A stretch of DNA of 64,000 nucleotides, taken from assembly GCA_018970175.1 (NCBI GenBank), contig JAGWWV010000004.1:1-64000 (forward strand), given 5' to 3'. Every line of letters begins with the position of its first letter. Position 1 is the stretch's first letter. This document shows positions 1-16,977 of the stretch, one piece after another. The stretch is from Acidobacteriota bacterium (GTDB lineage Bacteria; Actinomycetota; Acidimicrobiia; Acidimicrobiales; Ilumatobacteraceae). Made by a program: the position numbers and the translations under genes. The notes beneath the pieces were generated by a model, which was given only the letters and a program-made list of their open reading frames with translations, made no database searches and was not told the DNA's origin.

Positions 1-3000
1 ACCGCAATCGGTGTCGGCCGCTGCGGGCGACACCGAGGTCACTCTCACATGGACCGCACCCGCCTCGACGGGCGGATCGCCGGTGTTGAACTACCTGATC
101 GAACGCTACGACGCGGCGTCGACGTCGTGGTTGGCGTTGTGTGGACAGTCGGGTCAGCCGGCCTGTTCGGCAGCTTTGTCGTTCGTCGTCACCGGTCTCA
201 CGAACGGCACCGCGTACGACTTCCGCGTCTCGGCAGTCAACGCGTCGGGAACCGGCGCGGCACTGCAGACCTCGTCGTCGGTGACACCGGCGGGCCGCCC
301 GGCTGCGCCGACGCTCACCTCGACCTTCGCAAACGATTCGAGCGTCAGCGTGGTGTGGTCGGCAGGGTCGAGCAACGGTTCTGCGATCACGGGCTTCAAG
401 GTTCAGCGCAGCATCGCCGGCGCAGCGTGGTCGACGGTTGCCACCGTTGGTGCGGCGACGACCACCTACACGTTGTCGAATCTCACGAACGGTGTTCCGG
501 TTTCCGTGCGCATCGTGGCGGTCAATGGTGTCGGCGACAGTCCGTTCAGCAGCACCCACGACGTCGTACCGGTTGCCGCAACGGCAACTCCGACGGGCCT
601 CACGGCGACACCGGGTGACTCCTACGTTCTCCTGGAATGGACCGCACCGTCCAACATCGGCGGTACGCCGATCACCGGTTACCTCGTCGAGCAGAACTCG
701 GGTAGCGGTTGGACGACCGTCACCACCACGACCAACCCTGCCACCGGCTACGCGGTCATGGGCTTGACGAACGGAGCGAGCTATCAATTCCGCGTCAGCG
801 CGGTGAACCGCGCAGGCACGTCGTCGGCAAGCGCGCCCTCTGCCCCTGCGATGCCGAATGCGGCTGCGACCATCCTCAATCAGCCTGGTGCCCCCACGTG
901 GGTGTCGGCCACGGGTTCCAATGGCAGCGTTGCGTTGTCGTGGAATGCGCCGTCGACGACCAACGGCGCAACGATCACCGGCTACTGGATCGAACGCCTC
1001 GCCGACGACCGCTCGGGTTGGACCGATGTGGTGGCAAACACCGGCAACACCACAACGACCCGGACTGTCGGCAGCCTCACGAACGGCACGACGTACTTCT
1101 TGCGTCTTCGTGCTCTCACTTCGGACGGCTCGGGCATGGTGTCTGCCGCGATCGCGGCGATTCCCTCGGGAGCACCGGGTGCTCCGACCGGGGTGGTCGG
1201 TGTGTCCGGACCCGAGCGGGTGACCGTGACGTGGTCTGCCCCGTCGAGCGACGGTGGCAGCGGCATTGCTTCGTACCAGGTCCGCTACCGCGTTGCCGGT
1301 ACGAGCACCGAGCTCGGAACCGTCAACGTTGCGGCGCCGAGAACCGCCGCGACGGTGTCGGGTCTCACGAACGGCACGGCGTACGAGTTCGTCGTCGCTG
1401 CGGTGAACGCGAACGGTGCAGGCGCCGACTCGGCCTGGTCGGCCTCGGTGACCCCCGCTGAACTGCCGAATTCGCCGAGCGGACTGACCGCGACCGCGGG
1501 CAATGCTCAGGTGTCGCTGTCGTGGACCGCACCGGCCGGAAATGGTTCGGCGGTGCAGTCGTACAAGGTCGAGATGTCGGCGAATGGCGGTGTCTCGTGG
1601 ACGACGATCGAGGCGGCGAATGCCGCAACGACGTACATCGCGACCGGCTTGACGAACGGCACGACCTACGTGTTCCGCGTCAGCGCGACCAACGCCGTAG
1701 GTACGGGTGTCTACGGCTCGCTCGCTGCGGCAACTCCGGCAACGGTTGCAACCGCACCGACCAACCTCGCGATCGCAACGGGTGACGGCTTCGTCTCGTT
1801 GTCGTGGCTCGCCCCCGTCAGCAACGGTGGACTGCCGACGACGCACTACGTCGTCGAGCAGTGGAACGCCGGAACCAGTACATGGGACCAGATCTGTGGA
1901 GTGACCGGTGAGCCCTCTTGTACGGCAGCGTTGACGCGCGTCGTCACGGGTCTCACCAACGGTGTCACGCACGACTTCCGCGTCGCGGCGGTCAACGCCC
2001 GCGGCACCGGGGCTTATGCGACGCAGTCGGCCGCGGCCAGCATCGGTGCGGTTCCCGGAATCCCGACGGGTCTGACGGCGACGTCCGGCAACGGTCAGGT
2101 GGCACTCGCATGGTCGGCTCCGGCATCGCTCGGTGGTTCGCCGATCGTGGGTTACAAGATCGAGCGGTCGCCCACCGGAACGGGTGACTGGTCGACGGTT
2201 TCTGCGAACACGGGCAGTGCGATCACCGCCTACACGGTTCCGAGTCTTGCCAACGGTACGCAGGTGTTCTTCCGCGTCAGCGCCATCAACGGCGGTGGCA
2301 CGGGCAGCGCGAGCAGCACCGCGAGCGCCACCCCGAACCAGCCCGCAACCGCACCTCAGAATGTGGTCGCCACGGCGGGCAATACGCTGGCGATCATCAC
2401 CTGGGCGGCGCCTTCGAACCTCGGCGGTTCGAATCTTGTGAACTACGTGGTTCAGATGTCATCGAACAACGGAAGCACATGGTCCCAGGTCGCGACAACG
2501 ACGGGTACGACCTCGACCCAAACCGGTCTCACGAACGGCACGAAGTACGTGTTCCGTGTGTACGCAGTGACCGCGGCAGGTGACGGTGTCTCGTCTTCGC
2601 CCGTCATTGCGACTCCGTTCACGGCGGCGGCCGCGCCGACGGGATTGTCGTTGCTGGCCGGCGACGGGCAGATCGTTGCTTCGTGGACGGCTCCCGCCGA
2701 CAACGGTGCGGCGATCACCGAGTACCGCGTGTCGTACAACGTCGACGGTGGTGTCTATTCGAGCGACATCGTCGTCACCGGAACGACCGCGGTCATCACC
2801 GGCCTCTCGAACGGTGCGAACATCAGAGTGCGCGTGACCGCGGTGAACGCCGCGGGACCGGGTGCGGTCGCGACGGCCGGGCCGACGGTGCCGCGCGGTC
2901 TTGCCACTGCGCCACAGTCGATGACGGCGACGGCGGCGAACACCGCCGCCGCGCTGTCGTGGGCGGCGCCGTCCACCAACGGTGGTGCAGCGATCATCGA

Positions 3001-6000
3001 GTACCGCATCGAGTCGTTCGTGTCCGGCGCATGGAGCGAGATCGGTCGCAGTGCGACCACGTCGTACAACGTGACGTCGCTGCAGAACGGCACGGCCTAC
3101 CAGTACCGGGTCTCGGCAGTGACCGCCGCGGGCATCGGCGCGGCGACGGAACCTGTTGTCGTGACGCCGGCAACGACGCCGACGGCCCCCATCTCGCTCG
3201 GTGCGACACCGGGTGATCGTTTCGTCACGGTCACGTGGGCCGCGCCCGCGGACACCGGCGGGTCGACGATCACGACCTACGTCGTCGAGCAATCGACCAA
3301 CGGAACGTTGTGGACGGAATCACTGCGCACAACCGCTCTCACCGCAACGGTGACGGGTCTCACGAACGGCACCTCGTACTCGTTCCGCGTGTATGCGATC
3401 AACGGAGCCGGTGCTGGTGCGGCGGTGACGACCGCGACGACTCACCAGCCGGGAGCAAAGGCTTCCGCGCCGACCGCGCTGGTGGCGACTCCGTCGTCGG
3501 CCCAAATTTCGCTGTCCTGGTCGGCGCCAACCGACACAGGCGGTACCACCCTCACGGGTTACGTCGTCGAACAGTCGACCGACGGTGGTCTCAACTGGAC
3601 CACTGCCACGACCGTGTCGGGCACGTCCGCCACCATCACCGGTCTCGCGAACGGTACTGCGTACTCGTTGCGTGTCAGGGCGACGAATTCGTCTGGTAAC
3701 GGCGCAGCCTCTGTGATCGTCACCGCCACGCCATTCGCACTGCCAGGAGCCCCGGTTGTTGCGGTTCCGGTTGCCGGAGACTCACAGGTGACACTCACGT
3801 GGAGCTCGCCCGCCGGCAACGGATCAAGCATCACCTCGTACGTGGTTCAACAATCGGCTGACAACGTGACCTTCTCGAACGTCGCGAACCCCACCGCGAC
3901 ATCTGCGATCGTGACCGGTCTCACGAACGGCACGAGGTACTGGTTCAGGGTGTTCGCCGTCAACGCGGCGGTGACAAGTGTTGCCACGATCGCCTCGTCG
4001 GGTGCTCCGGCATCCAACACGGTGAACGCCGTCCCCGTCACTGTTGCCGCGGCACCGACCGGGCTGACGGCGACGCCGTCGAACGCTGCGACCAGCTTGA
4101 ATTGGACCGCGCCCACCGACACGGGTGGTGGCACGATCACGTCGTATCGCATCGAGAGATTCGATGGCGCGAGCTGGGTCTTTGTGGTCAATGCCGCCTC
4201 GTCGCCGCGCTCGATCACGGGCCTGATCAACGGCACAACGTACACGTACCGGATTGCGGCGAACACAGCCGCGGGTACCGGTGCCTTCACCGAGGCCGTC
4301 ATCGTCACGCCTGCAACGGTCGCATCAGTTCCGCGGTCGTTGTCGCGAGTTGGAGGCGACCAATTCGTCACGCTCACATGGGCGTCACCATTGACCAACG
4401 GCGGCTCAGCGGTGTCCGCTTACATCGTCGAACAGTCGACAGATGGCACGAACTGGACCGAGAGCTTGCGTACTTCGGCGCTCGAAGCGACGGTCACTGG
4501 TCTCACGAACGGCACGTCGTATCGATTCCGTGTCCGTGCTGTGAATGCGGCGGGTGAGAGCCCGAACGCGACGACGACGGCGGTCGTGCCGAGCGCGGCC
4601 GCCGCAGCCCCGACGGGCCTCACGGCCACTCCGGGCAACGGATCGCTTGGTCTCGCATGGTCTGCGCCGATCGACACGGGTGGTTCGACGATCAGCGGCT
4701 ACTCGATCGAGCGCACGACTGATGGCGGCCTCACCTGGTCGGTTGTCCGCACGGTCTCGTCTGCTGCGACGACATTCACGGGCCTCGTCAACGGCGTGTC
4801 GTACTCGTTCCGTGTTCGCGCCATCAACGCGATCGGAACGGGTGCGGCTTCGACGTTCGTGACCGCGGCGCCCTACACCACACCGGGCGCCCCGCGCTCG
4901 GTGAGCGTTGCTCCGGCCGACACGCAGGCGGTTCTCACATGGATCGTTCCCGCATCGAACGGTGGAGCGACAATCACGTCGTACGTCGTGCAGCAGTCGA
5001 CCGACAACGTGAACTGGACCCTCGCCGACAATCCGACGTCGAATTCGACGACGATTGCCGACCTGCAGAACGGTGTGCAGTATTGGTTCCGCGTCTATGC
5101 GGTCAATGCGGCAGTCGCCGATGTGAACTCGGTGGAGTCGTCGGGTGCGGTCGCCTCGGCGACCGTGACTGTGGTGCCACGGACAACCGCATCGGCTCCG
5201 CTCAACCTGGTTCCGACCGCGGGTGACCGCCGGGTGACTCTTGCGTGGAACACGCCCACGAACAACGGTGGTGCCGCCCTCACGGGTTACCTCGTGCAGT
5301 CGTCGTCGACGGGTGGTCGCACGTGGACCACGGCCGGAACAGTGTCGGCATCGACTCTGTCCTTTGCGGTGACCGGCTTGACGAATGGCGTGGCCTACGC
5401 GTTCCGCGTGTCTGCGCTGAACGCGGCAGGCACCGGTGCCGCGTCCACGTGGGTGACGTCGTCGCCGGTCGCGCCGCCGATTGCGCCGCGGTCCGTCGAG
5501 GTTGCGGCGACCGAGGAAACGGTCGCGGCGCTCCAGTGGACGCCGCCGACGGATGACGGTGGAGCAGCAGTCGTCGGATACAAGGTGCAAACTTCGGTTG
5601 ACGGGGGAGCCACCTGGGTCGACACCGCGCAGCTCGGACCGAACGTCTTCGAGGCGGGCGTCCAAACCGCGTCGTTTGATGCCACGATCACAACCTCGTC
5701 GCGCCTGGTCACCCTCGGCCGGATCCGTTACCTCGTGGTCGATGACGCGGGACTGAACAATGCAACGTCTCTGCAGGTCGGTGGCCTGTCGGCGGGCAAG
5801 ATCTACAGCTTCCGCGTCGCGGCGTACTCGCTGGTCGGGCAAAGCCCGTGGATCGACACGTCACTGCGCGTCGGCACGACTCCGTCGGCTCCGCGTAACA
5901 TCAGCTACACATCGGACACCTCGTCGGTGACCCTTTCGTGGGATGCGCCGACGACACCCGCCGGTGCGGCCCTCACGTACAAGATCGAGCGTTCGACCGA

Positions 6001-7027
6001 TGGCGGCGCAACGTGGACTGTCGTGACGACGGTCGAGAGGACCAGCTACGCGAACACAGGACTCGAGTCGGGCACGACGTACCGGTACCGCGTGACTCCC
6101 TTGAACGGTGACCTGAACGGTGAGGCTGTCACGATCGAGACGAAGACGAAGACGGTTGAGAAGCAAGCTTTGGCACCGGCGCCCGAGCCGGTCGTGCCGA
6201 CTCCGACTCCAGCGCCGACACCCGCTGTGCCGGTCGCCGCGCCCGAGCCGGTCGTGCCGGCTCCGGCGCCCACACCGGCTCCCGAAGCCGCCGTCGCGGT
6301 TCCGGTACTCCAGCCGCGGCTGTCGGTGAGCGTCGATCTCACGGCAACACGGACTGCCGAGGGAACGGCGGCGCGCGTGTCGGGATCGTTCGTGAAGGCT
6401 CGGTCGAAGGTGACGGTCACCCTCGAAGCTTTGACGGGTGATCTTGCAGGTTCTGGTCGTGACGTCGTGTTGTCGACCCGCGCCAACAACTTCGGCAAAT
6501 TCGGCGCCCGACTCGACCTCTCATCCGACTTGCCGTCGGGCCGTTACGTCCTCACGTTGAGGGCGGTCAACCCCGATGGCAAGGCGATCACAAAGACTGT
6601 CCGCTTTACGATCAAGGCAAAGGACACCGTGCCTGCCGGAAGCGAAGGCGGATCGGCATCCGATGGGGCGACGACCGGTGGTGACGAGGCAAACCCGGCC
6701 ACAGAGTCCGGTGACACCGCCTCGGGTGGCTCTGCGGAGGAAGACGGAAAGACCGATGGCGCTGGCGACACAACCAGTGGAGACGGCGAGACAGCCGCAC
6801 CGCCGACCACGGACGTGCCGACGACCCTGCCCGGCGACGCGTCTGCGACGACGATTCCCGAGGCGTCGGACCAACCGGACACCCAAGTGGTCACGCGAGT
6901 CGTCTACAAGGATCGTGCCGCAACGGCGTCGGTCGTTCTGGCACTCATCGGTCTGATCGTGGGGCTCGTGCTCGGCTGGATCCTGCGCGGTCGGCGCAAG
7001 AAGGACGAGGAGGAAACGGCCCGCTGA
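1..7027 (+). CDS. Giant cell-surface fibronectin type III repeat protein (about 21 FnIII-like domains), Pro-rich linker, Ser/Thr/Gly/Asp-rich stalk, C-terminal TM helix and basic tail; 5' end outside window
   Basis: Open frame 11..7027 (2338 aa) with no clear start in window; repeated W-x-x-P...GLTNGT-x-Y-x-F-R-V-x-A-V-N motifs; C-term VVLALIGLIVGLVLGWILRGRRKKDEEETAR. Confidence 0.93.
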   Translation, partial: PQSVSAAAGDTEVTLTWTAPASTGGSPVLNYLIERYDAASTSWLALCGQSGQPACSAALSFVVTGLTNGTAYDFRVSAVNASGTGAALQTSSSVTPAGRPAAPTLTSTFANDSSVSVVWSAGSSNGSAITGFKVQRSIAGAAWSTVATVGAATTTYTLSNLTNGVPVSVRIVAVNGVGDSPFSSTHDVVPVAATATPTGLTATPGDSYVLLEWTAPSNIGGTPITGYLVEQNSGSGWTTVTTTTNPATGYAVMGLTNGASYQFRVSAVNRAGTSSASAPSAPAMPNAAATILNQPGAPTWVSATGSNGSVALSWNAPSTTNGATITGYWIERLADDRSGWTDVVANTGNTTTTRTVGSLTNGTTYFLRLRALTSDGSGMVSAAIAAIPSGAPGAPTGVVGVSGPERVTVTWSAPSSDGGSGIASYQVRYRVAGTSTELGTVNVAAPRTAATVSGLTNGTAYEFVVAAVNANGAGADSAWSASVTPAELPNSPSGLTATAGNAQVSLSWTAPAGNGSAVQSYKVEMSANGGVSWTTIEAANAATTYIATGLTNGTTYVFRVSATNAVGTGVYGSLAAATPATVATAPTNLAIATGDGFVSLSWLAPVSNGGLPTTHYVVEQWNAGTSTWDQICGVTGEPSCTAALTRVVTGLTNGVTHDFRVAAVNARGTGAYATQSAAASIGAVPGIPTGLTATSGNGQVALAWSAPASLGGSPIVGYKIERSPTGTGDWSTVSANTGSAITAYTVPSLANGTQVFFRVSAINGGGTGSASSTASATPNQPATAPQNVVATAGNTLAIITWAAPSNLGGSNLVNYVVQMSSNNGSTWSQVATTTGTTSTQTGLTNGTKYVFRVYAVTAAGDGVSSSPVIATPFTAAAAPTGLSLLAGDGQIVASWTAPADNGAAITEYRVSYNVDGGVYSSDIVVTGTTAVITGLSNGANIRVRVTAVNAAGPGAVATAGPTVPRGLATAPQSMTATAANTAAALSWAAPSTNGGAAIIEYRIESFVSGAWSEIGRSATTSYNVTSLQNGTAYQYRVSAVTAAGIGAATEPVVVTPATTPTAPISLGATPGDRFVTVTWAAPADTGGSTITTYVVEQSTNGTLWTESLRTTALTATVTGLTNGTSYSFRVYAINGAGAGAAVTTATTHQPGAKASAPTALVATPSSAQISLSWSAPTDTGGTTLTGYVVEQSTDGGLNWTTATTVSGTSATITGLANGTAYSLRVRATNSSGNGAASVIVTATPFALPGAPVVAVPVAGDSQVTLTWSSPAGNGSSITSYVVQQSADNVTFSNVANPTATSAIVTGLTNGTRYWFRVFAVNAAVTSVATIASSGAPASNTVNAVPVTVAAAPTGLTATPSNAATSLNWTAPTDTGGGTITSYRIERFDGASWVFVVNAASSPRSITGLINGTTYTYRIAANTAAGTGAFTEAVIVTPATVASVPRSLSRVGGDQFVTLTWASPLTNGGSAVSAYIVEQSTDGTNWTESLRTSALEATVTGLTNGTSYRFRVRAVNAAGESPNATTTAVVPSAAAAAPTGLTATPGNGSLGLAWSAPIDTGGSTISGYSIERTTDGGLTWSVVRTVSSAATTFTGLVNGVSYSFRVRAINAIGTGAASTFVTAAPYTTPGAPRSVSVAPADTQAVLTWIVPASNGGATITSYVVQQSTDNVNWTLADNPTSNSTTIADLQNGVQYWFRVYAVNAAVADVNSVESSGAVASATVTVVPRTTASAPLNLVPTAGDRRVTLAWNTPTNNGGAALTGYLVQSSSTGGRTWTTAGTVSASTLSFAVTGLTNGVAYAFRVSALNAAGTGAASTWVTSSPVAPPIAPRSVEVAATEETVAALQWTPPTDDGGAAVVGYKVQTSVDGGATWVDTAQLGPNVFEAGVQTASFDATITTSSRLVTLGRIRYLVVDDAGLNNATSLQVGGLSAGKIYSFRVAAYSLVGQSPWIDTSLRVGTTPSAPRNISYTSDTSSVTLSWDAPTTPAGAALTYKIERSTDGGATWTVVTTVERTSYANTGLESGTTYRYRVTPLNGDLNGEAVTIETKTKTVEKQALAPAPEPVVPTPTPAPTPAVPVAAPEPVVPAPAPTPAPEAAVAVPVLQPRLSVSVDLTATRTAEGTAARVSGSFVKARSKVTVTLEALTGDLAGSGRDVVLSTRANNFGKFGARLDLSSDLPSGRYVLTLRAVNPDGKAITKTVRFTIKAKDTVPAGSEGGSASDGATTGGDEANPATESGDTASGGSAEEDGKTDGAGDTTSGDGETAAPPTTDVPTTLPGDASATTIPEASDQPDTQVVTRVVYKDRAATASVVLALIGLIVGLVLGWILRGRRKKDEEETAR

Positions 7028-7053: not shown

Positions 7054-7659
7054 CTAGATCTTCGTGGTTTTGTCGCGGAGGAACCGGAAGTATTCCTCGT
7101 CGGTCACGGCTTCGTCGCCGAGAAGCGTGTTGTAGTACAGCAACTGGTTGACGATGAGAATGAAAAGTACGCGTTCGTCAAAGACCTGACCCTCGGGCAA
7201 ACGGGCGACGACACTTGCCGACCAATCCTTCATCACCTTGAAACGCGCCTGGGCGATGTCCTTCAGTCGTGCCTCGAGGGTGGGGTTCGTCGCGGCAACG
7301 GCGAGGATCTGCAGGCGAAGTTTCAAGTCCGGGTTGGTGTACGCCTCGCTCGGTTTCGGTGCCAGACCGAGAATCTGGTCGACGGTGAGCGGACCGCTCG
7401 CCGGCAACAGCATCGTCATTCGCTGCGCCGTGCGGTCGAGAATCTCTTCGTAGAGGTCACCGAGTACTTGTGCGAGGAGACCGTCGCGGTCGCCGAAGTA
7501 GCGGTAGATGATCGACACCGAGTAGTGCGCATTGGCCGCAACCTCGGCAACGCGCAATCCGAGGATTCCGTTTTTCTCGACCTCGGCTCGCGCGCTTGTC
7601 AGAATCAGTTCGCGCGGGTCGCCCGCGGCTTCGCGGTCAGATTTGCGGGGGCGACCCAT
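7054..7659 (-). CDS. TetR/AcrR family transcriptional regulator
   Basis: N-terminal HTH (LILTSARAEVEKNGILGLRVAEVAANAHYSVSIIYRYFGDRDGLL) typical of TetR. Confidence 0.9.
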   Translation of the reverse strand: MGRPRKSDREAAGDPRELILTSARAEVEKNGILGLRVAEVAANAHYSVSIIYRYFGDRDGLLAQVLGDLYEEILDRTAQRMTMLLPASGPLTVDQILGLAPKPSEAYTNPDLKLRLQILAVAATNPTLEARLKDIAQARFKVMKDWSASVVARLPEGQVFDERVLFILIVNQLLYYNTLLGDEAVTDEEYFRFLRDKTTKI

Positions 7660-7762: not shown

Positions 7763-8800
7763 CTAGTCGAGGTTCGGCCAACGTCGCTTTTGGCGACGCC
7801 GCTGACCCGCGACGCCCGTCTTGCGGTGTTCGTAAAGCGCCCACTGGCGTCGCCAGCCCGTGTAGTCGGGTCCGGTCAGGGGAGTTGAGGACCCTTGAGC
7901 AGCGCGACGTCGTGCGGTCCAGAAGTCCGTTGATGACTCGTCACCCAACAGTGTGACCGCACGTTCGATGCGATCGCTGAAGCGACGCGTGTTTTCACCG
8001 TCGTCAGGGAACAACGGCGCGCCGAACACCACGCGGGTGTGGCCACGCTTCGGTCTCTTCATTCCCTTGCCGAAGATCGCACCGGTGCCGTCGATGAAGA
8101 CCGGCACGACGGGCGCACCGGTTTTGGCACTGAGATAGGCGGCACCGGCCTTGAACTCTTGGCCCCAACCGTCGGGGGACCGGCCTCCCTCTGGATAGAT
8201 CACGAGGCTCCAGTCGCGTGCCAGGAGATGACGCAGTTCGTCGGACGACTTTCGACTCGTCGTCTCGCGGTCGATGGGAATGGCATTCAGTGCGAGCGCA
8301 GCGAGGGTGCCCTTCACCCGCTTGTCGAAGAAGTAGTCGGCGGCGGCCGCGACGACCAGACGGTCGCGCCATGGCTTTGGCACCGCGGTCACCATGAGCG
8401 GTGTGTCGAGATGCGAATGATGGTTCGGAGCGAAGATGACGCCTCCGATCGACTCGTTGTTGGCCAAGTCGGTGAGCCGGTCGACGCCCTCGACGGTTGG
8501 TCGTGCGAGAAACTGGACCATCGCATTGACGGGGCCGGCAACGAGCAGTCTGCGCACAAAACGTGAGCCGGGTCCGCGGGCGAAGTCGGTGTCGAAGTTT
8601 GCTCCGAGTGTCGACTCCTTTGTGGGCACCTCAACGCCACGCGGAACGCTTGGTGCCCGATAGGGGAATCCCTTCGTTCGCCACATCTTCACCGGCTTGG
8701 CGGCGAGGCCCTCGAGTCCTTCGGCCAGTCCCGCGGCGCGTTGCAGAACGCGGCGCGACATGTCGCTGCGCGTTTTCTGTTTCGGGTAGTCGCGGGCCAT
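7763..8800 (-). CDS. 1-acyl-sn-glycerol-3-phosphate acyltransferase (PlsC-like)
   Basis: NHHSHLDTPL (HX4D) and YPEGGRSPDG motifs. Confidence 0.9.
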   Translation of the reverse strand: MARDYPKQKTRSDMSRRVLQRAAGLAEGLEGLAAKPVKMWRTKGFPYRAPSVPRGVEVPTKESTLGANFDTDFARGPGSRFVRRLLVAGPVNAMVQFLARPTVEGVDRLTDLANNESIGGVIFAPNHHSHLDTPLMVTAVPKPWRDRLVVAAAADYFFDKRVKGTLAALALNAIPIDRETTSRKSSDELRHLLARDWSLVIYPEGGRSPDGWGQEFKAGAAYLSAKTGAPVVPVFIDGTGAIFGKGMKRPKRGHTRVVFGAPLFPDDGENTRRFSDRIERAVTLLGDESSTDFWTARRRAAQGSSTPLTGPDYTGWRRQWALYEHRKTGVAGQRRRQKRRWPNLD

Positions 8801-8813
8801 CGTCGGGGTCCTC

Positions 8814-10400
8814 TTACTTCACGTCCGCGACCATGATCGGCGGGGTGTGAAGGTGGGTGATCGTGGGGTTGCGACCGACGACGTCGCTCGCGATCTCGAG
8901 CGCGTCGTTCAGCGTGGAGGCCGGAGTGAAACCGAGTCGGCGGACGGTCGGTGCATCGCCACCGACGATGATGACGCGACCGCAGTGCTGGAGTCCGTGG
9001 CTGCCCCAGTACCACATGTAGAACGGGTGCACGCCGTGGTAGGCGTAGCTGGTGCGGTACAGATGGCGGTACCAGTCGTCTTCTGCGAACTGCTTTTCGA
9101 AGCGCGCTTCGAGTTCGCTCGGAACCGTGGTCTCGGTGAGTACTTGTTCGAAGAAGTCGATGTAGCTCGGGTGATGGACCGGGTGGAACTCGTTCGGCGT
9201 GGGGTGGGTCATGATGACGACGCCACCCTCGCGCACCAGCGGCTTGCCGCGGTAGAGATTGAAGAAGTAACCGAGACCCGTGCACATGACGAGGATCGGG
9301 TTCATGATCGAGTTGACGTTGTAGGGGCAGATGAACGGGATGCCCATCGTCAAAATGTCGGTCTGGCCCTGCACCTCGACGAGCTGTTGCTTCCAGACGT
9401 TCTCGGTCGTCACCTTGTGGACCGCCTCGACCTCGCCGCACTGGATGCTCGTCATGTTGTGCGGCGCTTCGATCCCGTGGAAGATGTTGCGCGCCATGCG
9501 CGACGGCGTGCGGTTGAGTCCGGCCTGCGCGGCGATGAACTTGGCGCGATCGCGGCCGTTCCATTCCCACTCGCGCTTGGCAAGGAAGTCGAAGGGCTTC
9601 GGGAACGTGTCGTTGTTGACGGTCGTTTCGATCTGGAAGATCTTCGGACCGTGCTTGCGCATCACCTCACCCATGCGCCAGTTGCTCTTGTGCAACTCGC
9701 TTTTGTGGGCATCCATGAACGACCGGCTGTTCTGCATGGTGTGGGTGTTGTGGTGGTGACGTAGCGAGCGGTACGACGCGAGTCCCGTCGCGGTGCTCTT
9801 CCAGCCTCCGTCCATCGCGACCAGGTTGATGTTGACGTACACCAACAGGTCGCTTTCGGCTGCGCGCTTGTTGATTTCCACCTCTTCGCCGTGGGGTGTC
9901 TCGCCCAGCAGCACGAGATTGTCGGGATCTTCCGCATCGTGCTGGTACAGCATTCCGCGCGGCGCGAATGCGTCGTAGATGCGATCGCCCAATTGATGGC
10001 GAAGTTCGTCTTCGGTCATCCGGCGGTGCAGGGCGAGGGCTGCGATGATGTGAACGTCGTCGACGCCGGCCTCGGCCGCCATGTCGAGAACGGCCTCGAT
10101 GATGCGTTGGCGGATGTCGGGGCGCGTCATCTTGGGTAGCGGCAGACTGATGTCGTCGAATGCGATGCTCAACTTCATGCCGGGGAACAGAAGCGTCGGC
10201 AGGGGGTCCATGTCGATCGGGTTCAGCAGCGAATGTCGGATCGCACCGTCGATGTCATCGATCACCCTGTGCGGCTCGGGTGCGTAGATGACGCGGGACC
10301 TGTCGGCGGGCAGCTTTTCGAGTGTGAAGTTCTCGCCCCGCCAGAAGAGAATCGGGGGAGTCGAGCGGTCGACTTCGAGGACGAAACCTGGGCGTGGCAT
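8814..10400 (-). CDS. Lactate racemase LarA-like / DUF2088 domain protein
   Basis: FPGMKLSIAFDDISLPLPKM, ALHRRMTEDELRHQLG and GGWKSTATGLASYRSLRHHHN resemble the LarA N-terminal domain; start at MPRPGFVLEVDRS, overlapping the upstream gene's end. Confidence 0.75.
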   Translation of the reverse strand: MPRPGFVLEVDRSTPPILFWRGENFTLEKLPADRSRVIYAPEPHRVIDDIDGAIRHSLLNPIDMDPLPTLLFPGMKLSIAFDDISLPLPKMTRPDIRQRIIEAVLDMAAEAGVDDVHIIAALALHRRMTEDELRHQLGDRIYDAFAPRGMLYQHDAEDPDNLVLLGETPHGEEVEINKRAAESDLLVYVNINLVAMDGGWKSTATGLASYRSLRHHHNTHTMQNSRSFMDAHKSELHKSNWRMGEVMRKHGPKIFQIETTVNNDTFPKPFDFLAKREWEWNGRDRAKFIAAQAGLNRTPSRMARNIFHGIEAPHNMTSIQCGEVEAVHKVTTENVWKQQLVEVQGQTDILTMGIPFICPYNVNSIMNPILVMCTGLGYFFNLYRGKPLVREGGVVIMTHPTPNEFHPVHHPSYIDFFEQVLTETTVPSELEARFEKQFAEDDWYRHLYRTSYAYHGVHPFYMWYWGSHGLQHCGRVIIVGGDAPTVRRLGFTPASTLNDALEIASDVVGRNPTITHLHTPPIMVADVK

Positions 10401-11623
10401 CAGTGCTGCCCCTCTTTCTTCAATCTGACGTCTTTTTTCGATCGTTCGCCGCGCAGGTCGAAAGCGACCTTGATGGCTCCTCGTGGTCCCGCCTCGGCGG
10501 CGTGACGCAGTGCATGCGCATAGTCGGCGAGCGGATAGGTGGCGGACAACAGTCTCTCTGAGCGGACGATGGCGGAAAGTTCGATCGCCAAGTCGAAGGT
10601 TCGCCGACGCGAGCCGTCGGGAAGAGTCTCGGTTCCGTAGGTGTACGAGCCCTTCAGTTCCGTCTCGCGGTGCCACAGACCCGTCAGGTCGACGTCGACC
10701 CGGGCGGGCATGCCCATCAACACGACGCGGCCGCGCGGACGAGTGATGCGGATCGAGGTGGCGATGCTGTCGCTGTTGCCGACCGCGTCGATGGTGGCGT
10801 GCGCCCCCGACGACAGGTAGTCGCCGACGATGTGGCATCCCACGACGTGACGCACGGTGCGGGCGAGTTCGCTCGACTTCACGACGGTGGTGGCGCCGAG
10901 CTCGCGCGCGGCGCGCATTTGGGCGGGGTAGCGCGCACCGACCACGACGTGTGCATGTGGTGCAAACGCGCGCAGACCCGCGATTGCGGCAAGCCCCATC
11001 GTGCCCGCACCCTGTACCGCGATGACCGCTGAAGCGACACCACGCACCGATTCGATGGCCTGCAGAGCGGAGTGGATGCCTCCGGCGAGCGGTTCGATGA
11101 GAACCGCGCGTTCGTCGCTCATGTCGTCCGGAATTCGGTGAATCTGTGACTCGTGGGCGACAAGTTCCGTTGCCCAACCTCCACCGGTCGAGTTGCAGAA
11201 ACCGATTTGGATGCCCGGCTCGAGCGGGGGGAGAGCGAGATGGGCGTAGTCATCGCCGTCGCCCGGAGCAGCACCGTCGAACGGAAGGGCATGGCCACGT
11301 GCCGCGTGACCGAGCACTGGTTCGATGACGACGCGTTCGCCCGACTCGAGCTCTCCGACAACCTCGTGGCCAGGAACGAAGGGGAAGCTGACCCAGTTCT
11401 CGAAGTACGTCGATGCGTGTCCCTCGACCGTTGCGAGGTCGCTTCCGCAGATTCCGGTGAGGCGCGGATACACGCGGAGCCATCCGGTGCCCGGTAGTTC
11501 CGGGGCATCGTCGTCGCCCAGAGTGAGCGGGCCGATTTTCGCCGCCGAGCCGGTGTCGATGCCCGACACGAGTCGCGCGAGCATGAAGCGCCCCGTGTTG
11601 CGGTCGATGCGCAACGCCCTCAT
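10400..11623 (-). CDS. Zinc-type alcohol dehydrogenase / threonine dehydrogenase-like (MDR family)
   Basis: GICGSDLATVEGH, PFVPGHEVVGE, GAGTMGLAAIAGLRA Rossmann segment. Confidence 0.88.
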   Translation of the reverse strand: MRALRIDRNTGRFMLARLVSGIDTGSAAKIGPLTLGDDDAPELPGTGWLRVYPRLTGICGSDLATVEGHASTYFENWVSFPFVPGHEVVGELESGERVVIEPVLGHAARGHALPFDGAAPGDGDDYAHLALPPLEPGIQIGFCNSTGGGWATELVAHESQIHRIPDDMSDERAVLIEPLAGGIHSALQAIESVRGVASAVIAVQGAGTMGLAAIAGLRAFAPHAHVVVGARYPAQMRAARELGATTVVKSSELARTVRHVVGCHIVGDYLSSGAHATIDAVGNSDSIATSIRITRPRGRVVLMGMPARVDVDLTGLWHRETELKGSYTYGTETLPDGSRRRTFDLAIELSAIVRSERLLSATYPLADYAHALRHAAEAGPRGAIKVAFDLRGERSKKDVRLKKEGQH

Positions 11624-13956
11624 CGCTGTCTCTCGTTCATCATCGGCGCGAGGGGCAGCAGTTTCTTCGGTGCGCCGGCCGCTTTTTCCCACTCTTCGAC
11701 CAGCCAACCGCGCTTGCGTGCGATTGCTGCGAGTCGTGTTTCGGGGTTGACGGCGACGGGGTGACCCACGGCCTCGAGAAGCGGAAGGTCGGAGGTGGAG
11801 TCGGCATAGGCAACGCACTCTTCGAGCGAAAAACCGTTGGCGTCGCAGTAGTCGGACAGCACCTGCGCGCGCGTTTCACCCGTCGGCGGCACCTTGCTCA
11901 ACTGTCCGCTGTACGTACCGTCCGGGCGGATCGACATCTCTGCGGCGACGATTTCGTCGAACAGCGGGCGAAGCGACTCGACGTTGAAAGACAGTGCGCC
12001 GGTGATGAGAATCGTCTTGTGGCCGAGCGCGCGGTGTTCGCGCACGCGGCGGATGGCCGCGGGGAACGACTTGGCGACGATGATGTGGGTCATCATCTCG
12101 ATGGCATCACGTTCGATCTGTTCGACCGGAGCATTTTCATAGCGACGGTAGAAGTACCGCAGGAAGTCGCCGCGGTCCTTGCGGTCCATGCTGAGAAGCG
12201 ACGGAGCCTCGCGAAGGGTGCGCAGGACGTAGCGCATGCGTTCGGGGCCGTTCAGGTGACGAGTGGCCAACCACGAATAGCTTTCGACGACGTTCGACGC
12301 GATGAGCGTGTTCTCCAGGTCGAAAGCCGCAACCTGGCGGGCGGGGGAGAGCACGTTTGCGCGCAGTCGGGCGCTGCGGTCGGTCTTTGTTTTCCCCGGC
12401 GTCATCTTCACGCGGGCGTGTTCGACAACCGACGGTAGGTGGATGTTCTGGACGTAGTGATCCCAGGAAACGGCGCGCGGGTCGAAACAGAACGCGGACT
12501 GGTCGGCGGCGTCGAGTTCGTCCCACAGTCCGAGCAGGTTGTCGACCGAGTAGATCGCCTCGCACTCGGTGTAGAGACCGTAGAGCTCGACGTATTCGAG
12601 GGCACGTTCGATCTCGATTCGGCGTTCTTCGAGCTTTGCGCTCCATGTTGCCTGGGTTCCGCGCAGTGGCAGCGACTGCAGCAGGCGTTCGCCGCGCGTC
12701 ACCAGCGTTTGGGCACGGTTGAGCTGTTTCTGCACCCGGCCACGACCGGGGAAGTTCCAGTCGGGAACCACGATGGGCTGACCTTCGGCATCGTGCACGG
12801 GATGCGCGGTGAACCAGTCACGTACGTTGTCGACGAGTTGGCTGTAACGAAGGGGGTTCGTGCTGCCCGAAGCGACCTGCGTGATGAACGGTGCGCTCGG
12901 TCCCTTCGCGGCAACGGCAATGATCGCGGCAACGACGATGTCGACGGGGATGACGTCGATCGTTCCCTCGGGAACGCCGGGAAACTCGCGCAACAGTCCG
13001 CGCGCATAGGAGATGATGACGGGCTCGGCCATGCGAAATCCACGAATCCAACCCGGCCGCGGTTCGGCGAGGGCCGACTCGATGATCGACGGGCGAACGA
13101 TGTTGACCGGGAGGTCGCCCTTCGTTTCGAACACGGCCTGTTCGGCGAGCGCCTTGGTGAATGCGTACGCGTCGGGCCACCCGACGCTGGCGGCTCGGGA
13201 ACGGCCGGCCTGCACGAGTTCGTTCTGCACCCACCGGTCGCGCAACTGTTCGGTCTTTGCCGCAAGAGCGGGGGCGCCGGCGGCGCCGAGTTCGCGGCGG
13301 GCATCCGCACGGAATCGTTCGAGGGCGTGCGGTGTGCGACTTGCGGCTTCGATGTCGCCACGCAGGCGCCGTGCCGAATCGACTTCCGCGCGCCAGTCGA
13401 GACCGATGTCGAACGGGCCCTCGGATACAAGCAGTTCCGGCGCGTGGCCGCGTCGGTTGCCCGCCACGTAGCAAGTGCTGACAGCAACGAGGTGCGGCTT
13501 CGTCGATGACCCGGCGTGGAGTTCGTTGAGTACGGCTGCCAGGCGAACGGGTCCGAGCAGGTTGACCTCGACGGCGGAATCGAGGGGGGAGTCGAAGGCG
13601 ACGGCTGCGGCAGAGTGAATGACGATGTCGCACGTCGCGAGTTGTGCGCGACCCGCATCGGAGAGTCCGAGACCATCGACGGAGATGTCGCCGTCGATTG
13701 CGTGGACGCGCCGCGCACACATCGCGTCGAATTCCTCTGCGGTGCCGACGAGTTCCTCGCGCAAGCGATCGAAGGCGTCGTTGTTCAGGATCTCGCGCTT
13801 CACGCGGCCCGCGGCGCCGCGTCGGCCGCCGCGCACGATGAGAAACAGTTCGCATTCGGGTGCACTGCGCAGGAGGCGTTCCACGAGCGCGGTGCCGACG
13901 AAACCCGTCGACCCCGTGATGGCAATGCGCCGCCCCGCCAATGACTCCGCAATCAT
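11620..13956 (-). CDS. Fusion protein: N-terminal SDR/fatty acyl-CoA reductase-like (NAD_binding_4) plus C-terminal HAD-IB family hydrolase
   Basis: N-term GRRIAITGSTGFVGTALVERLLRS and YAFTKALAEQ; C-term FDLENTLIASNVVESY...TILITGA...YADSTSDLPLLEAVG. Confidence 0.88.
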   Translation of the reverse strand: MIAESLAGRRIAITGSTGFVGTALVERLLRSAPECELFLIVRGGRRGAAGRVKREILNNDAFDRLREELVGTAEEFDAMCARRVHAIDGDISVDGLGLSDAGRAQLATCDIVIHSAAAVAFDSPLDSAVEVNLLGPVRLAAVLNELHAGSSTKPHLVAVSTCYVAGNRRGHAPELLVSEGPFDIGLDWRAEVDSARRLRGDIEAASRTPHALERFRADARRELGAAGAPALAAKTEQLRDRWVQNELVQAGRSRAASVGWPDAYAFTKALAEQAVFETKGDLPVNIVRPSIIESALAEPRPGWIRGFRMAEPVIISYARGLLREFPGVPEGTIDVIPVDIVVAAIIAVAAKGPSAPFITQVASGSTNPLRYSQLVDNVRDWFTAHPVHDAEGQPIVVPDWNFPGRGRVQKQLNRAQTLVTRGERLLQSLPLRGTQATWSAKLEERRIEIERALEYVELYGLYTECEAIYSVDNLLGLWDELDAADQSAFCFDPRAVSWDHYVQNIHLPSVVEHARVKMTPGKTKTDRSARLRANVLSPARQVAAFDLENTLIASNVVESYSWLATRHLNGPERMRYVLRTLREAPSLLSMDRKDRGDFLRYFYRRYENAPVEQIERDAIEMMTHIIVAKSFPAAIRRVREHRALGHKTILITGALSFNVESLRPLFDEIVAAEMSIRPDGTYSGQLSKVPPTGETRAQVLSDYCDANGFSLEECVAYADSTSDLPLLEAVGHPVAVNPETRLAAIARKRGWLVEEWEKAAGAPKKLLPLAPMMNERQR

Positions 13957-13977: not shown

Positions 13978-13995
13978 CTCTACCAATTGGTAGAG
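13978..13995. promoter_or_regulatory. Perfect 18-bp palindrome CTCTACCAATTGGTAGAG; probable TetR operator between divergent genes
   Basis: Exact self-complementarity; lies between the start codons of the 13956 (-) and 14017 (+) genes. Confidence 0.75.
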
Positions 13996-14016: not shown

Positions 14017-14607
14017 ATGTCCCGAAAACCCACCCGGGAGCGGATTTTGGAAGAGGCGCTGGACCGATTCGGCTCGGCCGGCATCGATGCCACCAGCCTC
14101 GATGACATTGCCCGCGGGGTCGGGGTGGCCAAGCAGACCTTGCTCTATTGGTTTGCTTCGAAGGAAGAACTGGTGGTCGCGGTGCTGCAACGCGTGGCCG
14201 ACGAACTCACCCTCGAGGTTGGCGCCGCCGTGCGCGGGGCGCCGCACGGCTTTGCGCGTGTCGAAGCCGCAGTCACGGCGGTGTTCCGTCCGGCGGTGCG
14301 CCGGCCCGCATTGCTCGGCCTCGTGCGCGAGCTCAACCGCTTGAGCCCCGACCTGGCCGACGCGGTGGTGTTGCGAATGAAGCCGCTCGTCGAACTTGCG
14401 GTCGCCTACATCGAAGGCGAGATGGATGCCGGTCGCCTGCGTCGAGCTGATGCGCGGCTCGTCATGGCCTTCGCGTACTCGACTGTCGTGGGTGTTGCCA
14501 CCGAACCCGTTGCCCTGCGCGCGGTTGGATGGGAGCCGAGCGTTGCGTCGTTGCGGCGACTGCGCGCCGAGCTACTTGCGTTCTTGCGCGCCGCGCTTGC
14601 TCCGTGA
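14017..14607 (+). CDS. TetR/AcrR family transcriptional regulator
   Basis: RERILEEALDRFGSAGIDATSLDDIARGVGVAKQTLLYWFASKEELV HTH. Confidence 0.92.
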   Translation: MSRKPTRERILEEALDRFGSAGIDATSLDDIARGVGVAKQTLLYWFASKEELVVAVLQRVADELTLEVGAAVRGAPHGFARVEAAVTAVFRPAVRRPALLGLVRELNRLSPDLADAVVLRMKPLVELAVAYIEGEMDAGRLRRADARLVMAFAYSTVVGVATEPVALRAVGWEPSVASLRRLRAELLAFLRAALAP

Positions 14608-15618
14608 CCGACGGTCGAGCGCGAGTTCGACGAGCCGGTCGATGAGTCGGTCGTAAGGGAGCCCGGTCGCCTCCCACATCTTCGGGTACATCGAGATCGG
14701 CGTGAAGCCGGGGATGGTGTTCACCTCGTTGCACAGAAATCCGCGACCCTTTTCCTCGTAGAAGAAGTCGACACGCGCCATGCCCTCGCAGCGCAGTTCG
14801 GTGTAGACGCGGGCCGCGAGTTCGCGCACGATGCGGGTTTTGTCGGCGTCGAGAACCGCGGGAATGGTCAACTGCGCGGTGGAGTTCACGTACTTGTCGT
14901 CGTAGTCGTAGAACTCGGCACCCGCGACGATTTCGCCGGGTAGGGAGACCTCGGGTGTCACGTTGCCCAGCACGGCGACCTCGATCTCGCGGCCCGTGAT
15001 TGCTTCCTCGCAGAGCACCCATTCGTCGAACACGAACGCATGATGAATCGCCGCGAGCGCTTCGTCGCGGGTCTTTGCCTTCCGCACTCCGACGGATGAT
15101 CCCATGTTGGCGGGTTTCACGAACATCGGCAGGCCGACCGAGGCGATGATTTCGTCGATGTCGGCCGCAGCGAAGTGCGGTTCCTGGACGACCCGAAAGT
15201 GTGGCTGGGGCAAACCTGCCGCGGCGACGATCTGTTTCGCCATCGCCTTGTCCATGCACAGTGCGCTCGACAAGACGCCCGCGCCGACATACGGCACATT
15301 GGCAACCTCGAGCATTCCCTGGACGGTTCCGTCTTCGCCGAGCGGTCCGTGGAGAAGAGGCATGACCACGGTGTGTGCGCGTGGAATGTCGGACAACGTG
15401 ACCACGTCGCCCGATGGAGAAAGCCGACCCGATGACGTTGCCGCAGGTGAACAAACGGCACGGTGCCACACGCCGTCGCGGTCGATCCCGATGGCCACGA
15501 TGTCGTACTTCGCGGGGTTGGCCGCGGCGATGACATGTGCGGCGGTGACACAACTGACGTCGTGTTCGGCGGATTCTCCGCCGAACAGCACGACGAGGTT
15601 CAGTCGTGAACTGCTCAT
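14572..15618 (-). CDS. ddl: D-alanine--D-alanine ligase
   Basis: VVLFGGESAEHDVSCVTA, VKPANMGSSVGVRKA, CNEVNTIPGFTPISMYPKMWEATG. Confidence 0.95.
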   Translation of the reverse strand: MSSSRLNLVVLFGGESAEHDVSCVTAAHVIAAANPAKYDIVAIGIDRDGVWHRAVCSPAATSSGRLSPSGDVVTLSDIPRAHTVVMPLLHGPLGEDGTVQGMLEVANVPYVGAGVLSSALCMDKAMAKQIVAAAGLPQPHFRVVQEPHFAAADIDEIIASVGLPMFVKPANMGSSVGVRKAKTRDEALAAIHHAFVFDEWVLCEEAITGREIEVAVLGNVTPEVSLPGEIVAGAEFYDYDDKYVNSTAQLTIPAVLDADKTRIVRELAARVYTELRCEGMARVDFFYEEKGRGFLCNEVNTIPGFTPISMYPKMWEATGLPYDRLIDRLVELALDRRSRSKRGAQERK

Positions 15619-15657
15619 GGCCCCGACGGTACTAGCCGTCGGCGGTAGCGTCACGGT

Positions 15658-16977
15658 ATGCGGATTCCCGTCGGCGAGGCTGCGCGTGCAGTGGGCGGCA
15701 GAGTCGTGGGGAACGCCACCGACGTGTGTGATGCGGTGTCGTACGACTCACGTGCCCTCGCGGTCGGCAACTTGTTCGTCGCAATCGTCGCCGCCCGCGA
15801 CGGACACGACTTTGTCGACGACGCGGTGTGCGCTGGGTCCGGCGCGGTGCTCGTCTCACGTGAGATTCCCGGGTGTCGGGTTCCGCAGATCGTCGTCGAC
15901 GACACGTCGGTGGCCCTGACCGCGCTCGGGCGTTGGGCTCGCGCACGTATCGACGCCCGGGTCGCCGGCCGTGTCATTGGCATCACCGGGTCGGTGGGCA
16001 AGACCACCACCAAGGATTTCGTTGCCGCAGCGCTGCGCGCCAGGTACGTCGTCGGGGCAAGCGAAAAGTCGCTGAACAACGACCAGGGAATGCCGGTGAC
16101 GTTGTTGAATGCGCCCGATGACGCCGAGGCGCTGGTTCTCGAGATGGGAATGCGCGGATTCGGTGAAATTGCCCGTCTCGCCGAGCTCGCTCGTCCCGAC
16201 ATCGGCATCGTGACGCGGGTCGGCGAGTCGCACAGCGAACGTGTGGGCGGCATCGAGGGGGTTGCACGTGCCAAGAGCGAATTGGTGGCATCGTTACCGG
16301 CCAACGGTGTCGCGATCCTGAATGCCGACGATCCACGCGTGCTCGCGATGCGCGGGCTGACCGACGGCAAGTGTCTCACCTTCGGCGCTGCGAACGATGC
16401 CGACATGCGCGTCGGCAATGTCGCGGCTCGAGGTGCCGACGGGACGTCGTTCTCCTACGACTCGCGTTGGGGTGGCGGAACGTGCACGCTCGGCGTGCCG
16501 GGGGCGCACATGGTCTCGAACGCGGCGGCGGCGCTCCTTGCTGCTGCAGTGTGCGGAGTCGACCTTGCCGCTGCCGCCGATGCACTGGCCCGCACCGAGT
16601 TGTCACCGATGCGCATGGCGGTGCACCGCGTCGGTGCGCTGACGGTCGTCGATGACACCTACAACGCAAGCCCCACATCCACGATGGCAGCACTCGAGAC
16701 CCTCGCCGGGATTCCCGCCTCGCGGCGCATTGCGATTCTCGGCACGATGGCCGAGATCGACGAACCCGAGCGTCGTCACCGCGACGTCGCGTTGCGTGCG
16801 CAGGATCTGGGCATCGACGTGGTTGCGTTTGCGACCGACCTCTACGGGACTCGTCGGGTCGATTCGTACGACGAGGCGCTTGCCGTGGTCAGGGCACTTC
16901 CCGAAGATGGTGCGGTCTTGCTGAAGGGGTCACGCGTCGTCGGGCTCGACCACGTAGTGCGACTGATCAGGGGCTGA
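15658..16977 (+). CDS. murF: UDP-N-acetylmuramoyl-tripeptide--D-alanyl-D-alanine ligase
   Basis: ITGSVGKTTTKDFVAAAL, VVDDTYNASPTSTMAAL, LKGSRVVGLDHVV. Confidence 0.95.
   Translation: MRIPVGEAARAVGGRVVGNATDVCDAVSYDSRALAVGNLFVAIVAARDGHDFVDDAVCAGSGAVLVSREIPGCRVPQIVVDDTSVALTALGRWARARIDARVAGRVIGITGSVGKTTTKDFVAAALRARYVVGASEKSLNNDQGMPVTLLNAPDDAEALVLEMGMRGFGEIARLAELARPDIGIVTRVGESHSERVGGIEGVARAKSELVASLPANGVAILNADDPRVLAMRGLTDGKCLTFGAANDADMRVGNVAARGADGTSFSYDSRWGGGTCTLGVPGAHMVSNAAAALLAAAVCGVDLAAAADALARTELSPMRMAVHRVGALTVVDDTYNASPTSTMAALETLAGIPASRRIAILGTMAEIDEPERRHRDVALRAQDLGIDVVAFATDLYGTRRVDSYDEALAVVRALPEDGAVLLKGSRVVGLDHVVRLIRG

Follow-up and report, generated by a model that had tools for sequence, protein, structure and literature searches.

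Which reaction could a homologue of the nickel enzyme LarA carry out inside an operon of lipid enzymes? The question is raised by a four-gene cassette in a 64,000-nucleotide stretch of DNA (here referred to as the window) that comprises positions 1 to 64,000 of contig JAGWWV010000004.1 in assembly GCA_018970175.1, a draft genome (2.25 Mb in 121 contigs, ~90% complete) named as an Acidobacteriota bacterium and placed by GTDB in the Ilumatobacteraceae (Acidimicrobiia). The cassette encodes, in order, a fatty acyl-CoA reductase (FAR) fused to a HAD phosphatase domain, a zinc-dependent medium-chain dehydrogenase/reductase (MDR), the LarA homologue, and a PlsC-type acyltransferase (Table 1). A preliminary description of this DNA had read these genes as one operon of lipid-type enzymes with LarA as the odd member, and conserved co-occurrence and gene order in other genomes bear this out. 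We propose, with moderate confidence, that the cassette makes an alkyl-ether or closely related alkyl glycerolipid derived from a fatty alcohol, most likely 1-O-alkyl glycerophospholipid precursors. What the sequences show is that the genes are inherited together, that their catalytic motifs are intact, that the operon has an operator of its own, and that the cofactor pathway is complete; the substrates, the order of the steps, and the product are what we infer.

Of 397 genomes examined from the phylum, 86 contained the LarA family above its cut-off and 95 to 96 contained the FAR-HAD fusion. The preliminary description had tied its reading to conserved co-occurrence of these gene families, and the genome counts place the LarA homologue and the fusion together in 89 genomes and apart in 9 (LarA only, 3; FAR-HAD only, 6; neither, 299; Fisher p 4e-77), where the counts take in fragmented copies and p overstates independence because the genomes are related. 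We then fetched the neighborhoods of 58 loci and called their genes. The order FAR-HAD, ADH (the MDR gene), LarA, PlsC on a single strand was found at 33 of the 58, and 11 others, from Rubrobacteraceae, have the order PlsY, FAR-HAD, ADH, LarA, with PlsY directly upstream of FAR; most of the remaining loci are incomplete at contig ends. Gene order is kept down to ~54% LarA identity, and pairwise distances of the four proteins correlate between genes (r 0.69 to 0.89). The four genes are thus a real conserved unit, and a chance neighborhood is ruled out by the genome counts together with the arrangement conserved in the 58 loci.

LarA relatives at 80 to 96% identity are from assemblies of Ilumatobacteraceae and other Acidimicrobiia, which places the host among the acidimicrobial actinobacteria, probably within Ilumatobacteraceae. 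The cassette was not found on plasmids in PLSDB, and distant LarA homologues (~35 to 41% identity, L068 to L085) lack it. Within that range, loci L069 to L073 form a separate LarA clade (~40% identity) whose neighbors are a class III CoA-transferase and an AMP-binding enzyme; FAR and PlsC are absent there. Three loci in assemblies titled Bifidobacterium breve and Acidobacteria (L109, L150, and L123) carry an acidimicrobial cassette with 73 to 89% LarA identity, and these titles are probably wrong. In several Rubrobacter genomes (L046 to L052, Rubrobacteraceae), genes for protoglobin, MarR, GAF, and MOSC proteins separate the dehydrogenase gene from that of the LarA homologue.

The LarA family of the cassette is already named, without an assigned function (NCBIfam NF052592; groups 14 to 16 of Desguin 2020), and the protein encoded in the window matches its profile at 894.4 bits against a cut-off of 740 (residues 6 to 528 to profile positions 1 to 520). 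We mapped active-site residues by alignment with annotated LarA proteins, among them that of L. plantarum, and followed them through 58 family members. The cofactor site is retained: D72 of LarA corresponds to D83, the cofactor lysine Lys184 to K201, and the nickel ligand His200 to H217. The first catalytic histidine, H108, is likewise present as H125, and D83, H125, K201, and H217 are all invariant or nearly so. Residues expected of a racemase are missing. H174 has no equivalent, the segment being deleted or replaced by VNxN (phmmer pairs N192 with N185 of LarA_Sp, and MAFFT gives a gap against classical LarA); N190 and N192 are at least 96% conserved. K298 aligns with a conserved asparagine, N367. 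In characterized enzymes, R75 and its equivalents bind both the substrate carboxylate and the phosphate of the cofactor (PMC12611868, PMC7583248); here the position is L86, and Leu, Ile, Cys, or Val in 58 of 58 members. The preliminary description was right to call this protein LarA-like with its substrate unknown, and it was incomplete, since three catalytic or substrate-site residues of LarA are absent. Because equivalents of H174, R75, and K298 are lacking, lactate-type racemization is unlikely, and the LarA homologue quite probably keeps the cofactor without being a 2-hydroxyacid racemase. Inversion of a stereocenter may be beyond groups without H174 and K298, according to Desguin 2020 (PMC7583248), which suggested that they might perform another hydride-mediated reaction.

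These replacements bear on one alternative, in which 2-hydroxy fatty acids or their acyl-CoAs are the substrates of the LarA homologue, FAR then reduces them to long-chain 1,2-diols, and PlsC acylates the diols to give diol-based lipids. Long-chain diols are known from Thermoleophilum; our literature search for diols in Thermoleophilum returned nothing direct. The chemistry joins up, in that LarA enzymes isomerize 2-hydroxyacids (PMC7583248) and acyl groups are what FAR reduces. We nevertheless consider this route unlikely, given that the substrate-carboxylate arginine is replaced by aliphatic residues or Cys throughout the family and that H174 and K298 are gone. Furthermore, the PlsY gene adjoining FAR in Rubrobacter points to glycerol-3-phosphate instead, and the reported speciality of Rubrobacter, going by the title of the paper concerned, is ether lipids.

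By sequence and by fold (model pLDDT 82.5), the nearest solved proteins are the single-histidine enzymes LarA_Sp and LarA_Bw (PDB 9q2u/9q3k and 9q3j; PMC12611868). The cassette protein shares with them the Asp, the His base, the cofactor Lys, and the nickel His, and it may also share the replacement of H174 within an Asn-containing loop; H401 and Y307 of LarA_Sp correspond to H458 and Y360 of the cassette protein. It differs in that K76 of LarA_Sp (R75 of LarA) becomes Leu, Ile, Cys, or Val and H306 becomes Pro. The genomic contexts differ as well, with lipid enzymes around the cassette LarA and glycolytic genes around the single-histidine LarA.

The preliminary description had suggested a check for larB, larC, and larE elsewhere in the genome, and all three are encoded in the host. 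LarB (244 bits, cut-off 175) and LarC (above its cut-off) are on one contig (C102), and LarE (282 bits, cut-off 150) is on another (C84). At other loci larE, larB, and larC adjoin the cassette itself (L036, L041, L086, L093, L095, L098, L100, and L102). Within the host's class, larC was found in 19 of the 21 cassette-bearing genomes and in 0 of the 17 others. Because larB, larC, and larE are in the host, adjoin the cassette elsewhere, and, in the case of larC, track it across the class, the LarA homologue is very likely a nickel-pincer enzyme, as judged from these gene distributions. The same distributions weigh on the idea that it is a pseudo-enzyme or a moonlighting protein that leaves the cofactor unused, as the loss of H174, R75, and K298 and the existence of two carriers without LarC and LarE might suggest. 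That idea is hard to reconcile with the near-invariance of D83, H125, K201, and H217, the tracking of larC with the cassette, and the adjacency of larB, larC, and larE in several genomes, and we regard it as very improbable.

The partner enzymes have intact catalytic motifs. Pfam detects NAD_binding_4 (187 bits) and HAD (82 bits) in the fusion protein, which also matches TIGR01490 (103.2 bits, cut-off 98.3). Its reductase part belongs with alcohol-forming FARs: NAD_binding_4 contains Y264 and K268 of the YxxxK motif, and the best solved match, the fatty acyl-CoA reductase 7eoz (E 1e-60), aligns through residues 2 to 515; the Sterile domain of FAR on its own scored 33.7, under its cut-off of 35.4. 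Y264 and K268, with D546, D719, and D723 of the HAD domain, are conserved across 47 FAR-HAD orthologues. In the window and in close relatives the HAD nucleophile motif (12318-12332) reads FDLENT, where Glu takes the place of the second Asp; some other cassettes have FDxDGT. The acyltransferase has an Acyltransferase domain (PF01553, 72 bits), and its HX4D (H127, D132) and EGGRS motifs are conserved across 40 orthologues. In the dehydrogenase (ADH_N and ADH_zinc_N in Pfam), the zinc ligands C59, H86/E87, and E177 are conserved across 50 orthologues, and the best solved matches are the ketose reductase 1e3j and sorbitol dehydrogenases.

This last similarity raises the possibility that the LarA homologue and the MDR enzyme act on a sugar or polyol phosphate to build an unusual head group or backbone, with HAD as the phosphatase and FAR and PlsC adding the hydrophobic part. 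Some LarA homologues are gluconate epimerases, and single-histidine LarA enzymes are linked to carbohydrate metabolism; one of them co-purified with a polyol-like, possibly phosphorylated ligand of ~316 Da, which probably occupies the substrate site in covalent linkage (PMC12611868). Genes for a glycosyltransferase, a sugar kinase, or a transporter are, however, not among the conserved members of the cassette, and the single-histidine members with a carbohydrate context are only ~20 to 24% identical to the cassette protein across the fold alignment, which makes a carbohydrate substrate improbable.

The acyltransferase partner points to glycerolipid synthesis. It differs between unrelated families yet stays of the glycerol-phosphate type, being PlsC in Acidimicrobiia and others and PlsY in Rubrobacteraceae. 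The cassette PlsY is the sole PlsY in four of five Rubrobacter-family genomes checked (the fifth, G041, has 3 hits), and G081 has no PlsY and just two PF01553 proteins, one of them within the cassette. Rubrobacterales have dominant mixed ether/ester lipids, according to the title of Sinninghe Damste 2023 as cited in PMC11150832. Our family f25 is identified as Rubrobacteraceae by 100% matches of G054 to an R. radiotolerans plasmid and of G077 to an R. indicoceani plasmid. The abstract of the 2023 study reportedly mentions that all five Rubrobacter genomes have a putative operon for making 1-O-alkylglycerol phosphate. Should this be the present cassette, the lipid idea may be partly published already and only the LarA analysis would be new.

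Markers of known ether-forming routes were also sought. The Ger/PlsA route gives sn-1 alkyl or alkenyl ethers in bacteria (PMC11150832), and its marker PF09989 is absent from 16 of 16 genomes; the control genome, T. maritima, was positive. For AGPS, the sole PF02913 protein of the host (L203) is glycolate-oxidase-like (263 bits, against 70 bits to AGPS), and the three PF02913 proteins of G041 are glycolate-oxidase or D-lactate-dehydrogenase-like. A further AGPS candidate, L223 of G375, was rejected as D-2-hydroxyglutarate-dehydrogenase-like. No PlsC protein of ElbD size was found in G041, where the PF01553 frames are 228 and 305 aa, and Pfam finds no acyl-CoA synthetase (ACS) or acyl carrier protein (ACP) domain in the cassette, unlike the FAR-ACS-ACP-AGPAT multidomain protein of the elb type. 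Because the acyltransferase partner stays of the glycerol-phosphate type, carriers include Rubrobacter, and known ether-forming markers were not found, the cassette appears to serve glycerolipid synthesis. The preliminary description had proposed an unusual lipid pathway of the fatty alcohol, ether, or wax type; the Rubrobacter link favors the ether type as the predicted product.

Under the wax option, the fatty alcohols made by the cassette would go into wax esters or other neutral lipids for storage, and LarA would serve a side step. FAR and an acyltransferase are present, and Acidimicrobiia and Ilumatobacter have many wax synthase/DGAT homologues (PMC10351704). We think this distinctly unlikely, as no wax synthase gene was identified among the recurrent cassette neighbors, the acyltransferases are of the PlsC/PlsY type, with the cassette PlsY the only copy in several Rubrobacter genomes, and a storage pathway leaves the near-obligate linkage with a nickel-pincer enzyme unexplained.

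In the alkyl glycerolipid pathway that we favor, FAR would reduce an acyl thioester to a fatty alcohol and PlsC (PlsY in Rubrobacter) would acylate the glycerol-phosphate backbone. The LarA homologue would perform a nickel-pincer hydride step at the C2 carbinol or ketone of the backbone, allowing or accompanying replacement of the acyl ester by the alkyl chain. Reduction of the 2-keto intermediate would fall to the sorbitol-dehydrogenase-like enzyme, as it does to alkyl-dihydroxyacetone-phosphate (alkyl-DHAP) reductase in animals, and the HAD domain would remove phosphate at some step. Overall, this would be the animal ether-lipid route (FAR1, GNPAT, AGPS, and a reductase) with a nickel-pincer enzyme in the AGPS slot. 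That substitution is the weakest step. In its specific form, with the LarA homologue as an ether-forming nickel-pincer alkylglycerol-phosphate synthase that swaps the acyl ester for a fatty alcohol, we regard it as doubtful. The exchange could proceed through transient C2 hydride removal on an acylglycerol phosphate (hidden redox, cf. S-adenosylhomocysteine hydrolase) or through a covalent adduct at C4 like that of FAD in AGPS.

Comparison with characterized systems shows what the cassette shares with them. The animal pathway (PMC9131029) has counterparts for FAR, the glycerolipid acyltransferase, and a ketone-reductase-type enzyme, whereas AGPS was not found in the host or in G041 and the cassette LarA homologue and HAD domain lack animal counterparts. 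The elb operon of M. xanthus (ElbB-ElbE; PMC9131029) likewise encodes a FAR-like reductase, HAD, an acyltransferase, and an NAD(P) oxidoreductase together; ether lipid output has been demonstrated for ElbD (PMC9131029). Compared with elb and with the MXAN_1674-1676 AGPS operon (PMC9131029), the cassette lacks acyl-CoA synthetase/ACP domains and AGPS, and it has FAR fused to HAD, plus the LarA homologue and a zinc MDR enzyme instead.

Several points weigh against an alkyl glycerolipid as the product. A literature search for ether lipids in Acidimicrobiia gave nothing direct, and lipid data were found neither for that class nor for Thermoleophilia. An acyltransferase and a reductase also suit wax or fatty-alcohol lipids, and ether lipids could arise from an undescribed enzyme elsewhere in the genome. 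The linkage itself has exceptions: the cassette of G264 (L037) is without the dehydrogenase, Rubrobacter has other genes between ADH and LarA, and G066 has LarA at a separate place from FAR. Finally, G264 and G295 (L048) keep a LarA homologue with the key residues but without LarC and LarE.

The activities assigned to known nickel-pincer enzymes are racemization or epimerization of 2-hydroxyacids, and our literature search found no report that links a nickel-pincer enzyme to lipids. The cassette gives one LarA group without H174 and K298 a near-obligate metabolic context, fatty alcohol formation and glycerolipid acylation, and its reaction therefore becomes testable; the LarA homologue may do new chemistry in lipid synthesis. 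If it does form ethers, it would be the first nickel-pincer enzyme beyond racemases and epimerases and would define a new bacterial ether-lipid route. The cassette is also a concrete candidate for the source of membrane ethers in aerobic Rubrobacter and relatives without known ether-forming enzymes, a matter of relevance to the "lipid divide" that separates bacteria from archaea.

The cassette also has a regulatory signature that the preliminary description did not include. The divergent promoter contains an 18-bp perfect palindrome, CTCTACCAATTGGTAGAG, which is the sole match in the window (0.02 expected), and its consensus, TCTACCANNTGGTAGA, recurs in most divergent promoters of the cassette. 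The exact core, CTACCANNTGGTAG, was found at 48 loci, one site each (48 sites in 2.13 Mb), all centered 17 to 88 bp upstream of the FAR start. Of 12 genomes searched in full, 9 have exactly one copy of the operator, and wherever that site could be placed it is the operon promoter. A wider TetR regulon that might have named the pathway was thereby rejected, the operator being single-copy and at the operon only. The TetR gene is divergent from FAR in Acidimicrobiia, and a homologue lies 3' of PlsC in many other families; one or the other arrangement is seen at most cassette loci. Because the operator is single-copy per genome and at the operon promoter, the TetR protein is most simply, and probably, a local repressor of this operon alone. 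A scan for consensus promoters and terminators gave signals at background level.

The four minus-strand open reading frames of the preliminary description and their coordinates were confirmed, as were their domains by Pfam and NCBIfam. The junctions are also as it gave them: the FAR-HAD and MDR genes overlap by 4 nt (ATGA, 11620-11623), the MDR and LarA-homologue genes overlap by 1 nt at 10400 (TGATG), and plsC follows after a gap of 13 nt (8801-8813), in which agagga is a likely ribosome-binding site.

Table 1. Cassette genes, operator, and regulator, with positions in the window
Feature	Position	Strand	Remarks
Fatty acyl-CoA reductase (residues 1-~515) fused to HAD-IB phosphatase domain (~543-755)	11620..13956	-	778 aa; operon gene 1
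Zinc MDR dehydrogenase, sorbitol dehydrogenase/ketose reductase type	10400..11623	-	407 aa
LarA homologue, NCBIfam LarAH14/15/16, predicted nickel-pincer-nucleotide enzyme	8814..10400	-	528 aa
PlsC-type (AGPAT-like) acyltransferase	7763..8800	-	345 aa; final operon gene
Candidate palindromic operator CTCTACCAATTGGTAGAG	13978..13995	.	between TetR gene and operon
TetR-family regulator, divergent	14017..14607	+	TetR_N 45 bits

Downstream of the operon and convergent with it lies a gene for a 2338-aa protein with fibronectin-III-like repeats, a C-terminal membrane anchor, and a basic tail (11-7027, plus strand). A second TetR-family gene (7054-7659, minus strand) is located just 3' of plsC on the same strand and is not kept with the cassette in other genomes. 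On the other side, a D-Ala-D-Ala ligase gene and a MurF-like gene (14572-16977) are recurrent upstream neighbors of the cassette with their order kept, and there is an overlap between the ligase gene and the divergent TetR gene at the 3' end of the latter. Farther along, a luciferase-like monooxygenase gene adjoins a cytochrome P450 gene (18189-20478, minus strand).

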